NCBI GenBank assembly: GCA_003670925.1
Contig: QWQG01000203.1
Location: 1-51,087 of the forward strand
Source: Planctomycetota bacterium
Lineage (GTDB): Bacteria > Planctomycetota > Planctomycetia > Planctomycetales > Planctomycetaceae
Length of the DNA stretch: 51,087 nucleotides
Direction: 5' to 3'
Shown here: positions 4,320 to 24,723 of the stretch, piece after piece
How positions within the stretch are numbered: position 1 is the first letter of the stretch
How the letters are laid out: each line of letters begins with the position of its first letter
Position numbers and translations under genes: made by a program
Notes under the pieces: generated by a model
The model's input: the letters and a program-made list of their open reading frames with translations, nothing else
What the model was told of the DNA's origin: nothing
Database searches by the model: none

Positions 4320-4517
4320 TTAGTTGGCAGGCACGACGATATCCTGACTGTCTGCCTTGCTGTCCCTGAAATTGCACAACTCTTCGCGAACGATGTTCAT
4401 CGACTTTGGTGCTTCAATCCCAATCCGTACCGAGTTGGGGCCAATGCGGACAATCGTGATCGCAACGTCGTCACCGATTAGAATTCGCTCGCTCGTCTTT
4501 CTGGATAGTACTAACAT
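4320..4517 (-). CDS. csrA: Carbon storage regulator, RNA-binding translational regulator
   Basis: CsrA/RsmA is a small dimeric RNA-binding protein that blocks or modulates translation by binding GGA motifs in mRNA leaders. The 65-residue product starts MLVLSRKTSERILIG, the hallmark N-terminus, and continues with ITIVRIGPNSVRIGIEAP and an I-V-R-E-E-L segment containing the conserved Arg and Glu. The start at 4517 is fixed by this N-terminus and by an AGGGAG ribosome-binding site 7 nt upstream; the frame is open further upstream but that part is not CsrA-like. A terminator lies at 4234-4259. No flagellar genes or fliW are adjacent, so the targets cannot be inferred. Confidence 0.95.
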   Translation of the reverse strand: MLVLSRKTSERILIGDDVAITIVRIGPNSVRIGIEAPKSMNIVREELCNFRDSKADSQDIVVPAN

Positions 4518-19444: not shown

Positions 19445-19859
19445 GGCAGCGAACTCCTATTTCAACTTCCGGCCGTCAGCAGATTCGCATCAGAGGACGT
19501 TGGACGCAGACGTGATGCGCCCAGCCATGTGAGTTATCGGCCGCGAGAAAACACGAAACCGAAGCCAGTTGAATTCCACTGCAGATTTGACCGGAGCAAT
19601 CGACCGAATAGTCAGGTCTGTCGGACGAGTCAACAGGGACGGATTATAACGCTTAGCAAAGCAACGTCGGGTAGCCGTAACGCAAGATCGTGCATGGCGT
19701 GCGGAAGAAAAAAAAAGTTGCTAAGTTTCAACATTGCCATCTCACATTCCCGTCCATTTTTGAAAAGAATGATACGCTTTGAATCCTTGTCTGAAGCGAG
19801 TTTCATTATTTTTCATAAAAACTTGAAGGAAAACTGACTTCTGTGACGATGTTGCAGAC
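19445..19859. other. Intergenic region between divergent thioredoxin/YHS and nrdA genes
   Basis: 415 nt with no recognisable gene. The part from about 19700 onward is AT rich, as expected upstream of the nrd promoter at 19860-19906. Confidence 0.5.
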
Positions 19860-19906
19860 ATACAACATTTAGTGTTGACAGATTCGCGGAGCCCACTATA
19901 TTGCGG
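19860..19906 (+). promoter_or_regulatory. nrdA promoter with two NrdR boxes
   Basis: A near-consensus sigma-70 promoter: TTGACA at 19875-19880, a 16-nt spacer, TATATT at 19897-19902. Two 16-bp sites match the NrdR box (acaCwAtATaTwGtgt): ATACAACATTTAGTGT at 19860-19875 (13 of 16) and GCCCACTATATTGCGG at 19891-19906 (11 of 16, core 9 of 10). They start 31 bp apart, the three-helical-turn spacing known for NrdR operators, and overlap the -35 and -10 elements. NrdR is the ATP/dATP-sensing repressor of ribonucleotide reductase genes. The nrdA start codon is about 500 nt downstream, so the transcript has a long leader. Confidence 0.75.
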
Positions 19907-19998
19907 TTGTCGATGAATTCACCGGAGCATTGAGTTTGAGTCAACGCTACCGCAAACCGCTGGCAGAACAAGGTTTGAGTGACGTTAAGCTGAGTTTG

Positions 19999-20026
19999 TT
20001 GACATAGCCTCGATGCCGTTTATTCT
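19999..20026 (+). promoter_or_regulatory. Possible second promoter in the nrdA leader
   Basis: TTGACA at 19999-20004, a 16-nt spacer and TATTCT at 20021-20026 (4 of 6). Transcription would start around 20034, just ahead of the small reading frame at 20074. It is not overlapped by NrdR-like sites. Confidence 0.35.
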
Positions 20027-20054
20027 GCGTCACATCTCGGTAAGGATGCCCCCC

Positions 20055-20069
20055 TCGACAGGAGGTCGA
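20055..20069 (+). promoter_or_regulatory. Ribosome-binding site presented in a hairpin loop
   Basis: A full AGGAGG (20060-20065) lies 8 nt before an ATG at 20074. Its first five bases form the loop of a TCGAC/GTCGA stem, and an alternative CCTC/GAGG pairing could hide it. This could gate translation of the small reading frame that follows. Confidence 0.45.
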
Positions 20070-20073
20070 TTAC

Positions 20074-20151
20074 ATGACAATTTCGTCGCTTGCGTATCTG
20101 GCTGCTACCCTCATTGCCCGCCAACTGACTCAATCTCATTTGCCTGATTGA
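20074..20151 (+). CDS. 25-codon leader reading frame upstream of nrdA
   Basis: A short frame of 25 codons starting with ATG, 8 nt after a perfect AGGAGG. The peptide begins MTISSLAYLAATLIARQ and ends with a polar SHLPD. It is mildly hydrophobic in the first 15 residues and shows no run of one amino acid that would suggest a classical amino-acid attenuator. The stop codon (20149-20151) lies inside the 3' arm of a perfect 8-bp hairpin (ACTCAATC at 20128-20135, GATTGAGT at 20146-20153), so a terminating ribosome would open that hairpin. It may be a regulatory leader peptide or a small protein gene; no homologue is recognised. The nrdA start is 257 nt further on. Confidence 0.4.
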   Translation: MTISSLAYLAATLIARQLTQSHLPD

Positions 20152-20407
20152 GTTGCCTTAGTCAACCACTGTTATGAGCCGCTGCGCGCAAGTTCGAATT
20201 GGCATGATGTTGTTGTGTGACTGTTCTGAGTCAGCTTCGAACTGGTATTTTCGTGCTTTGAATTCGAGTGTCTTTTTGCTCGTCTCAGGGCGTGCGTTAC
20301 GCGGCGTTGCCGCAATGAGTTGATTTTGTGTCGAGTTTTCATTGAGTTGAAGGTGCTGCGTATGAAGCGCAGTTTTCATCTGAAAAAATTAAGGGGAGTA
20401 GCGTCGA

Positions 20408-23299
20408 ATGATTCGAGCAGTATCAGAATGGATAATTCGCAAACGAGATGGACGAACAGTTCCGTTTGAGCCAAGTTTGATCGGCAAAGCGATCAGCAAT
20501 GCGTTTCGGGCAGAACAAAACCTCGCTGTCAACCAGCCGCTCGATGAAGACATTGAGCAGGAAGTCGCATCCATCACGGCCGAGGTGGTGTCTGAAGCGG
20601 CCAATGATGCTACGTCTGCGCGCGGAGTCGGTGTTGAGCATATCCAAGATCTCGTCGAAATGCAGATGATGAAGCGTGGGCACTACCGAGTGGCACGGCG
20701 GTATATCGTTTATCGTGCCGAACACGCCAAGATTCGTTCGTTGCTGCATCCGGAGACGATGGAAGGTTCTGATCTTTTAGCGCCGCCGAGGATGTTCGTC
20801 AAACTAGAAGACGGTGTTCGCGTGCCGTTCGATAGTTCGCGAATTCGGCGACGCATCGACGCCGCCTGTGTCGGCCTGCCGGAGTGTGACCCGAACGCAT
20901 TAGTAGAAGAAGTGATGAAATCCGTCTTTGACGGGATATCAGTGGGAGAAATTTACCGCGCGATGATTCTGGCGGCCCGCTGCCGCATTGAATGTGATCC
21001 GGCATTCGATACCGTAGCCGCCCGGCTGCTGCGAATGGTGATCAGTAACGAGGCACTGGGGAGTTCCCCTGTAAATCATGCGGAATACAGCAAGCTATAC
21101 CGCAACCAATTTGAGCACTACGTGATTGACGGTATTAATGAAGATCGGCTGACTCCAGACCTGCGAAATCTGGATTTGACCCGCATCGCAATGGCTCTGC
21201 GTCCTGAACGCGATGGATTGTTCAAATATCCGGGTCTCCAGGCAGTTTATGACCGTTATTTACTGCACATCGAAGGTCGTCGCATCGAGACTCCGCAGTA
21301 CTTCTGGATGCGTGTGGCAATGGGTCTAGCGATGAAAGAAGACCAGCCTGAGACGCGAGCGATTGAGTTCTACAACATGCTGTCGACCATGCGGTTCACA
21401 TCTGCGACGCCGACACTGTTCAACTCAGCAACAAATCATCCTCAGCTCAGTTCCTGCTACCTGTCGACCGTAAAAGACGACCTCGAACACATCTTCAAGT
21501 GTGTTGCTGACAACGCAAAGCTCAGCAAATGGGCCGGTGGACTTGGAAACGACTGGACCAGCATTCGCGCCACAAATTCGCACATCAAGGGCACGAATGG
21601 TCGTAGCCAAGGTGTGATCCCATTCTTGAAAGTTGTGAATGACACTGCGGTTGCTGTGAACCAAGGTGGCAAACGCAAGGGGGCCGTGTGTTCGTATCTT
21701 GAGACGTGGCACATGGATGTTGAGGAATTCTTGGACCTCCGCAAGAACACAGGTGACGATCGTCGTCGAACACACGACATGCATACGGCGAACTGGATTC
21801 CGGACTTGTTTATGAAACGCGTCGAAGAAGAACGCGAATGGACGCTGTTCAGCCCGGATGAAGTTCCTGATCTGCATGATCTGGTAGGGAAGAAGTTCGA
21901 AGACCGCTATCTTGAGTACGAGCGAATGGCGGAATCCGGCGAAATCCGGATGTCGAAAAAGCTGCCAGCGATTGAACTCTGGCGTAAAATGCTCACACGA
22001 CTTTTCGAAACAGGGCATCCTTGGATCACATGGAAAGATCCCTCGAATATTCGATCGCCTCAAGATCATGTGGGTGTTGTGCACAGTAGCAATCTTTGTA
22101 CGGAGATTCTCCTGAACACGTCGGCGACTGAAACTGCTGTCTGCAATTTGGGCTCAGTCAATATGCTGGCTCATATCACAGATGGTCAGCTTGACCTGCC
22201 GATGCTGGAAGAAACGGTCCGCACCGGAATGCGGATGTTGGATAACGTTGTTGATATCAACTTCTATCCAACCGATGAAGCGAAGACGTCAAACCAGAGG
22301 CATCGTCCAGTGGGCTTGGGTTTAATGGGATTCCAAGACGCTCTTGCAGCCATGCACATCAGCTATGCGAGCGTAGCAGCAGTGGACTTTGCCGACTACA
22401 GCATGGAAGCCATCTCCTACTTCGCAATTTTAGCGTCGTCTGAGCTAGCAGCTGAACGTGGCGTGTACAGTACCTATCGGGGATCTAAGTGGGATCGCGG
22501 GATGTTGCCGATCGACACCATGGATCTACTAGAGCAGGAACGCGGTTGTCGAATCGACGTCGATCGTACGGCCCGCATGGACTGGGCGGTTGTACGTGAC
22601 TCCGTGGCAAAGCATGGCGTCCGCAACAGTAACTGTATGGCCATCGCCCCAACAGCAACAATCTCCACGATTGTGGGGGTTTCACAGTCGATTGAGCCAA
22701 TGTACAAGCATCTGTTTGTGAAGAGCAATCTCTCAGGTGAGTTTACTCATCTGAACCCATCATTGGTCACGGAGTTAAAACAACGCGGTCTGTGGGATGC
22801 CGATATGCTTGAAGCATTGAAGTATTACGATGGCACGCTTGCTCAGGTTCCACGAATTCCTAGTGACATCAAGGCTCGGTTTCTGACCGCGTTTGAAGTG
22901 GAACCCAAATGGTTGATTGAATGTGCGGCACGCCGCCAAAAATGGATTGACATGGGCCAGTCACTCAACCTGTACATGTGTGAGCCGAGTGGACGCAAAC
23001 TGCACGAAATGTACATGCTGGCTTGGCGTAAAGGTCTTAAAACAACCTATTATCTCCGCACCCTGGCAGCGACTCAGATTGAAAAATCGACAGTAGACAT
23101 TAACAAGTTTGGTCTTCAGCCTCGCTGGGTCAAAAGTCGCAGTGCTTCCAGTGACATTCAGGTCGCACGCATGGATTCTGATCGGTCGCCGGAGCAGGGA
23201 CGCACCGACATCCCGACGCCGCATGTCGTGCCGGTGACTGAGGTTTCGCAGTACAATGCCTGCAGCATAACGGACCCGGATTGCGAAGCGTGTCAGTAG
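20408..23299 (+). CDS. nrdA: Ribonucleoside-diphosphate reductase class I, alpha subunit
   Basis: The large subunit of aerobic ribonucleotide reductase, which makes deoxyribonucleotides in the cytoplasm. The 963-residue protein is longer than E. coli NrdA (761) because two ATP-cone regulatory domains precede the core (about residues 6-100, [17 protein letters not shown], and 137-225, [16 protein letters not shown]). Active-site residues are in place: Cys350 in LSSCYL and Cys579 in AVCNLGS (the redox pair), and Asn562, Cys564 and Glu566 in SNLCTEI (radical and catalytic residues). The C-terminus ends DPDCEACQ, a Cys-x2-Cys tail for thioredoxin reduction. AGGGGAG lies about 10 nt before the ATG. 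Transcription is probably controlled by NrdR through the sites at 19860-19906. nrdB follows after 362 nt. Confidence 0.97.
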
Positions 23300-23661: not shown

Positions 23662-24723
23662 ATGACTACTGCTGTAATCGCCGATCAGAAATTGCTCATC
23701 GGCACCGAAGGTCGCGTCAAGGCGACTGAAAAACGCTTGATTAATAACGCCCAAGTGGACGTAAACCAGTTGATGCCCATCAAGTATCACTGGGCCTGGG
23801 AGCACTACAACAGTGGTTGCGCCAATCACTGGATGCCAACCGAAGTGCCGATGAATCAGGACGTCGAAATTTGGCGTTCAGATCGTTTGACTGATGACGA
23901 ACGCTTGGTGATCAAGCGAAACCTAGGGTTTTTCTCAACAGCTGAATCACTGGTGGGGAACAATCTGGTCTTGGCAATCTTTAAACATGTGACAAACGCG
24001 GAGTGCCGCCAATACTTACTTCGTCAGGCGTTTGAAGAGGCCGTGCATTCGCATACGTTTCTGTACGTCGTTGAAAGTCTTGGTCTGAACGAAGGCGAGA
24101 TCTTCAACATGTACCGGGAAATCCCGGCGATTGCGAAGAAAGATGCTTTCGAAATGGAACTCACTGCGGAAATCATGTCCGAAGGATTTTCGACAGACAC
24201 GCTCGAGGGCCAGCAGATGTTCCTCAAAAACCTAATTGGCTTCTATGTCATTATGGAGGGCATTTTCTTTTACAGTGGCTTCGTGATGGTGCTTTCATTC
24301 CACCGTCGCAATCTGATGAAGGGGATCGGAGAACAGTTCCAGTACATTTTGCGGGACGAAACGGTCCATATGAATTTCGGCGTCGATCTGATCAATGGAA
24401 TCAAGTCCGAAAATCCAGGCTTGTGGACGCCGCAGTTCCAGTCAGAAATGATCGATCGCATTCGTACGGCTGTCGAACTGGAAATCGACTACGCCGAAGG
24501 CTGCCTGCCACGCGGTGTGCTAGGTCTGAATGCGGAATCATTTCGGGACTATGTACAGCACATCGCTGACCGTCGCCTCGAACGCATTGGCCTCCCGACG
24601 CAGTATGGTTCTCCAAACCCATTCCCTTGGATGAGCGAGACGATTGACCTGTCTAAAGAGAAGAATTTCTTTGAAACCCGCGTTAACGAATATCAAAGTG
24701 CTGGTTCGTTGAACTGGGATTGA
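23662..24723 (+). CDS. nrdB: Ribonucleoside-diphosphate reductase beta subunit, class Ic type
   Basis: The small, radical-generating subunit of ribonucleotide reductase. The 353-residue ferritin-like protein shows the metal ligands Glu95 (AESLVGN), Glu126 and His129 (EEAVHSHTF), Glu199 (VIMEGIFF), and Glu233 and His236 (RDETVHMNF). The residue seven positions after Glu126, which holds the radical tyrosine in class Ia, is Phe133, and the first ligand is Glu rather than Asp. Both features mark class Ic proteins such as that of Chlamydia trachomatis, which use a Mn/Fe cofactor instead of a tyrosyl radical. The ATG at 23662 follows a GAATGAGG-type binding site. An intrinsic terminator follows at 24759-24788. 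Confidence 0.96.

Follow-up and report, generated by a model that had tools for sequence, protein, structure and literature searches.

The window analysed here, i.e., the whole 51,087-nt stretch of a Planctomycetota contig, carries the genes of a class I ribonucleotide reductase on its forward strand. The large chain, nrdA (20408-23299, +), has homologues in relatives and owes its name to the first-pass annotation of this DNA and to inspection by eye; the small chain, nrdB (23662-24723, +), lies downstream of it and was identified by eye from sequence. The start codon of nrdA (ATG 20408) follows a Shine-Dalgarno sequence, GGGGAG (20393-20398, +), and is preceded by a long leader. From 5' to 3' this leader holds a promoter overlapped by NrdR-like boxes (P1), a second, predicted promoter (P2), two GGA-bearing sites (A and B), a 25-codon frame that ends in a hairpin (E), a conserved heptamer, GCTGCGC (20181-20187, +), kept in 8/8 of the closest leaders and 13/15 of the aligned ones, and two further hairpins (C and D). 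An Rfam search of the window found no family at or above its gathering score, the cobalamin riboswitch (RF00174) included, in line with the first-pass annotation, which recognised no known riboswitch; with relaxed thresholds, the region 19700-20500 gave three weak matches (E 1.3-4.3). The folding energy is ordinary, both for the whole leader (z -0.97) and from the predicted P2 start onwards (z -1.29), and it is owing to conservation and covariation, not stability, that we judge the leader to be real. We consider that it is very probably conserved as a cis-regulatory region and that it contains a second promoter.

Both the leader and the N-terminal third of NrdA were searched in 99 related genomes, the latter finding a match in 31 of them. 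From a scan of named genomes we took nrdA loci, the best 80 of at least 539, and among the 78 leaders cut from these best 80 of at least 539 loci hairpin B was present with at most two mismatches in 16; L094 and L167, where the nrdA start is unset or absent, were left out of this count and of the doublet count given below. The main set for sites A and B comprises 28 leaders from 28 genomes of five genera, i.e., 24 aligned leaders plus four found by a covariance model of A and B (R1), which are thus not independent of that model; L066 and L068 were dropped as duplicates of L101 and L102. Alignment A1 was built without L107, which is missing hairpin B (by eye, two GGAs remain there), and alignment A2 without L093, L098 and L107, in which C and D are unrecognisable.

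Site A (20039-20050, +) reads GGU[AAGGAU]GCC, an ANGGAN motif in a hexaloop on a short stem, and hairpin B (20055-20069, +) reads UCGAC[AGGAG]GUCGA, an AGGAX pentaloop. The latter corresponds to what had already been noticed from the sequence, namely AGGAG (20060-20064) forming the loop between TCGAC (20055-20059) and GTCGA (20065-20069); the perfect AGGAGG (20060-20065) reported 8 nt ahead of an ATG (20074) is there as well. Across the 28 leaders, the loop of A is composed of A (28), a free position (A12 C8 U7 G1), G (28), G (27), A (28) and a last variable base (C11 U10 G6 A1), and A(N)GGA(X) is found at this site in 27/28, L096 carrying GCA. In loop B, AGGA is invariant (28/28) and the following base is G in 24 leaders, A in three and U in one, i.e., AGGAGG is replaced by AGGAA (3) or AGGAU (1) in 4/28. 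The loop positions that vary in A and B are those left free in the published A(N)GGAX motif. Given that the Shine-Dalgarno letters vary while AGGA stays, AGGAGG makes better sense as belonging to an A(N)GGAX site, and it may also start translation in some species. The GGAs of A and B are separated by 13-20 nt in the 24 leaders (14 nt here), and L098 has a distance of 23 in the doublet scan.

An ANGGAN loop closed by at least two pairs occurs within 35 nt before B in 23/24 leaders, compared with a total of 0.23 from dinucleotide shuffles, the leaders being related and hence not 24 independent events. By criteria that were fixed after the site had been seen, a hairpin with an AGGAN pentaloop and five or more stem pairs is present once on the plus strand of the 51-kb window and zero times on the minus strand, and the doublet (ANGGAN plus AGGAN hairpin, 13-30 nt apart) once across both strands, at this leader. 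The same doublet was found 22 times in the loci of 78 relatives (1.28 million base-strands), 15 of these at the same leader position and seven elsewhere. Model R1, run over 170 family genomes with strict filters that lose weak matches, gave 35 matches at E <=0.01; the 28 best (E <=0.0015) are all nrdA leaders, one of which (G008) stops at a contig edge before nrdA, and the remaining seven are weak (E 0.0027-0.0095). Judged by its 28 strong matches, the element formed by A and B is specific to nrdA. The exact string CGACAGGAGGTCG occurs in 68/170 family genomes and in 12/18 genomes of the genus, in the latter always at the nrdA leader, plus a second copy in G003; as a marker it was rejected. 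Of 30 inspected loci, six are this leader (five g43, one g6) and 24 look by eye like chance. The total of GGA was also considered (205 vs 157 expected in the 24 leaders) and dropped as evidence because this genome's own leader, with 3 vs 3.5 expected, shows no increase.

In the stem of A, at least two pairs (hexa- or heptaloop) form in 27/28 leaders, only 2-3 pairs in most, and the pairs themselves are changed among leaders (GGU/GCC, GC/GC, GAA/UUC); in 16/28 the GGA of A could instead be buried in an alternative stem of at least three pairs. In stem B, 99.1% of cells are paired in the 24 leaders, two rows have A-U in place of G-C at one pair, and there is one G-U; its covariation is thin, a control slid by three columns and B itself scoring alike (0.086 vs 0.084). 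In isolated folds, the mean pair probability of hairpin B exceeds 0.5 in 8/24 leaders, and the GGA is mostly unpaired in 3/24 leaders for A and 10/24 for B. In the best fold of 20033-20075 of this genome, the GGA of A is taken up by upstream bases and CCUC/GAGG forms in place of hairpin B.

Two promoters are predicted upstream of A. The NrdR-like box pair (19862-19906, +), so called for a resemblance to NrdR boxes, overlaps P1 (-35 TTGACA 19875-19880, -10 TATATT 19897-19902) and is kept in the leader alignments. P2 (19999-20026, +) consists of TTGACA (19999-20004), a 16-nt spacer and TATTCT (20021-20026), matching 10/12 consensus letters. This sequence alone contains two promoter-like sites against 1.0 expected, and therefore a single sequence proves nothing for P2. 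Among relatives, in a scan that allowed spacers of 15-19 nt and required at least 5/6 letters at the -35, the spacer is exactly 16 nt in 25/25 leaders, the -35 is an exact TTGACA in 24/25, and the distance between P1 and P2 is 122-126 nt in 22/25, the rest having 133, 134 and 144. The P2 transcript would start near 20033, about 7 nt past the -10. Site A lies only 7-10 nt past the P2 -10 in some leaders, so that with such a start their P2 RNA would not include the 5' arm of A, leaving a bare 5'-terminal GGA. No gene for NrdR itself turned up in this draft genome, though its presumed boxes are kept; as NrdR is present in 15/18 genomes of the genus, an assembly gap is the likely reason for its absence here. 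Between P1 and P2 there is also an inverted repeat, CAAACC...GGTTTG (19953-19977), which by eye is kept in many leaders of the genus.

At the other end of the leader, hairpins C and D adjoin the ribosome-binding site of nrdA. Hairpin C (20356-20372, +) reads CUGCGU[AUGAA]GCGCAG, and hairpin D (20373-20386, +) reads UUUUC[AUCU]GAAAA, the latter drawn by eye for this genome, whose row is shifted in the aligned columns. Counted in 22 leaders that were selected for having this region, 98.5% of the cells of C and 88.2% of those of D are paired. Two-sided changes affect 4/6 pairs in C (matched by 10/500 shuffles) and 4/5 pairs in D (matched by 35/500), and both the number of such cells (11 in C, 15 in D) and the covariation score were reached by 0/500 shuffles for either hairpin. 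In 17/22 leaders the loop of D holds a GGA, which precedes the Shine-Dalgarno sequence by a few bases; at the aligned place it is absent from this genome and four other rows, and in most leaders the base preceding it is not A. A covariance model of C and D, run on 82 sources, gave 18 matches at E <1e-5, all of which extend up to the nrdA start; L201, L203 and L206 among them are outside the set used to build the model. The model of A and B found 21 sources at E <0.001, comprising all 18 with C and D; those without a strong C and D match are L093, L098 (E 0.34) and L204, which is cut before nrdA.

The loops of A and B bring to mind the targets of the CsrA family. According to PMC4005645, the core motif of CsrA/RsmE is A(N)GGAX, with ANGGAX hexaloops as well as 5-nt loops without the N (RsmZ SL3/SL4), which are bound more weakly; according to PMC7652899, ANGGAN hexaloops are CsrA targets and a CsrA dimer bridges sites 10-63 nt apart, a range that includes the gap of 13-20 nt between A and B. 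This genome has canonical CsrA genes: eight CsrA-family matches, seven of them over the cut-off, three showing VSVHR or VAVHR and one aligning to the E. coli CsrA structure 1y00, RsmE (2jpp) being among its structural hits too. In 59/59 genomes searched there were CsrA-family genes over the cut-off, and thus their presence does not discriminate. A divergent member of the family is encoded in the window itself, at 4371-4517 on the minus strand (within 4320-4517), with MNIVREE in place of VSVHREE.

We postulate that the nrdAB leader is a Csr-type dual-site leader that would add post-transcriptional control to nrdAB, with a CsrA-family dimer gripping A and B, a reading to which we give slightly less than an even chance; that the distal sites A and B are CsrA targets is close to an even call. 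P1 would operate under the NrdR-like boxes, and P2, some 125 bp downstream, would start a second nrdAB RNA, or P1 would read through. The first ca. 40 nt of the P2 RNA would carry A and B, to which a CsrA-family dimer would most likely bind together, and hairpins C and D, at the other end of the leader, would sit against the ribosome-binding site of nrdA. Bound CsrA could protect the 5' end of the P2 mRNA from decay, as on flhDC, or alternatively, with GGAs near the start codon, it could make the mRNA less accessible to ribosomes, as on glgC. In our assessment most of the probability falls on CsrA-type recognition of the two sites, with stabilisation and repression about equally plausible.

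Several known systems offer partial parallels. The RsmZ/hcnA-type RsmE target loops of P. fluorescens (PMC4005645) are likewise an ANGGAX hexaloop, as in A, and an AGGAX pentaloop without the N, as in B, and share the closing C-G pair of B; unlike them, the stem of A has only 2-3 pairs in most leaders, the leader is that of nrdAB in Planctomycetota, and the sites are candidates by sequence. The E. coli flhDC leader (PMC7652899) similarly carries a pair of GGA sites close to the mRNA 5' end, whereas here the gene is nrdAB, the P1 transcript would cross the sites and stabilisation is a proposal. The E. coli glgC leader (PMC7652899) resembles the nrdA leader in having a hairpin-loop GGA just before a GGA-containing Shine-Dalgarno sequence (as in D of 17/22 leaders), but in this genome hairpin D is without a GGA, and the base before the GGA is mostly not A elsewhere.

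Descriptions of nrdAB control mostly concern transcription (NrdR) or B12 riboswitches. Within the titles and abstract openings covered, from a literature mostly outside the subscription journals, we found no description of Csr control of nrd genes and none of RNA targets of planctomycete CsrA. If true, a Csr-type site on nrdAB would link the supply of DNA precursors to a global RNA-binding regulator and provide the Planctomycetota CsrA paralogues, seven of which are above the cut-off in this genome, with a defined and testable target. It is possible, and we suggest it only tentatively, that dNTP synthesis is in this way wired into the Csr network, ribonucleotide reductase being set by a nucleotide-sensing repressor at P1 together with CsrA at P2, in a phylum in which CsrA paralogues are numerous per genome.

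Other explanations might account for the same conservation. A and B could act as DNA elements that RNA polymerase or a repressor reads, with A as the stretch transcribed first from P2 and B as a palindromic operator. Neither is further than 45 bp past the P2 -10, B is palindromic as DNA, and its single two-sided change is symmetric, all of which such a role would accommodate. However, the AGGA in the centre of B varies no more than the arms do, which is unusual for a spacer, the G-U pair in L093 and L204 breaks the DNA symmetry, and variation at A follows A(N)GGAX; we regard this explanation as rather unlikely.

The leader might also work by folding alone, or through another ligand or protein: the CCCC/CCUUC before B would pair with GGAGG or with the GGGG of the nrdA Shine-Dalgarno sequence, and C and D would gate the start. 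C and D are indeed the best-supported helices, and many isolated folds of the A-B region favour alternative stems. By eye, most leaders of g1 and g71 combine a CCCC tract before B (20050-20056) with GGGG in the nrdA Shine-Dalgarno sequence (20393-20396), and the g43 leaders are missing this GGGG, so that a long-range anti-Shine-Dalgarno pairing is possible. Yet the C-rich tract is absent from most g43, g6 and g30 leaders whereas A and B stay, and folding alone leaves the A(N)GGAX pattern unexplained; we hold this explanation to be improbable. Kissing of the B and D loops and the long-range CCCC pairing to the nrdA Shine-Dalgarno sequence were both set aside as general features, as by eye neither holds across all genera.

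The first-pass annotation had instead centred on the 25-codon frame (20074-20151, +), the translation of which could reshape the RNA upstream of nrdA. On such a leader-peptide explanation, translation would begin at AGGAGG/ATG 20074, and ribosomes passing or stalling there would alter hairpin E and the RNA before nrdA. The structural details on which this was built are accurate. AGGAGG is well spaced from the ATG, and the frame ends, as had been described, in a perfect 8-bp hairpin (E, 20128-20153, +), formed by ACTCAATC (20128-20135) and GATTGAGT (20146-20153), with the TGA (20149-20151) in its 3' arm. Hairpin E keeps 7-8 pairs in the seven closest species (by eye, both arms are changed in L092), and these species also keep the frame length (25-26 codons) and the stop, one of them with a TTG start. 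A start codon 4-13 nt past the site is found in 16/29 leaders altogether, and four g43/g6 leaders have a common ATG (MPAG, MPAG, MPAN, MSAS), their peptides diverging after the first residues. Nevertheless, the frame with this stop is present in only 7/29 leaders, all from the closest species. Among the 22 other leaders, 13 have no ATG, GTG or TTG 4-13 nt past the AGGA(X) hexamer, and the nine that do (L099, L100, L101, L103, L105, L107, L063, L204 and L206) open peptides of 5 to 68 codons, unlike the 25-codon product; by our estimate, a start would be expected by chance in that interval in ca. 40% of cases (10 positions, 3/64 codons). Selection on the peptide is not evident in the nearest clade, where pN/pS is 1.08 (pairwise differences add up to 48 non-synonymous and 15 synonymous); a second clade of three species has 0.55, from few changes. 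AGGAGG, as noted, is lost in 4/28 leaders. No run of special codons was seen in the frame, terminator-like sites are near chance (2 vs 1.0 expected), no conserved terminator was found near nrdA, and the U-run behind hairpin C is not conserved.

Comparison with related leaders, which had been proposed as the check on this idea, thus turned out in two ways: the frame is not conserved, hairpin B is. The suggestion of a second layer of control beyond NrdR is borne out to the extent that the leader is conserved, structured and carries more than the NrdR-like boxes; translation of the short frame as the switch is not, and we hold it, like the leader-peptide explanation as a whole, to be decidedly improbable.

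That P2 drives a separate small RNA tying up CsrA, i.e., a CsrB/RsmY-like decoy with nrdA merely downstream, would fit its own promoter and the GGA sites at the 5' end, but with two distal sites only, no conserved terminator seen and all 28 strong matches of the element in nrdA leaders, it is very improbable.

The Csr-type dual-site reading that we favour can lastly be set beside the cobalamin riboswitches in nrdA leaders of other planctomycetes, which are alike in gene, position in the leader and in being structured RNA, and unlike in that the Rfam search found no RF00174 or other family in the window. Within the 16 loci searched, RF00174 was found in the nrdA leaders of four (L116:2534-2750, L118:1864-2082, L119:2518-2739 and L124:2521-2735).
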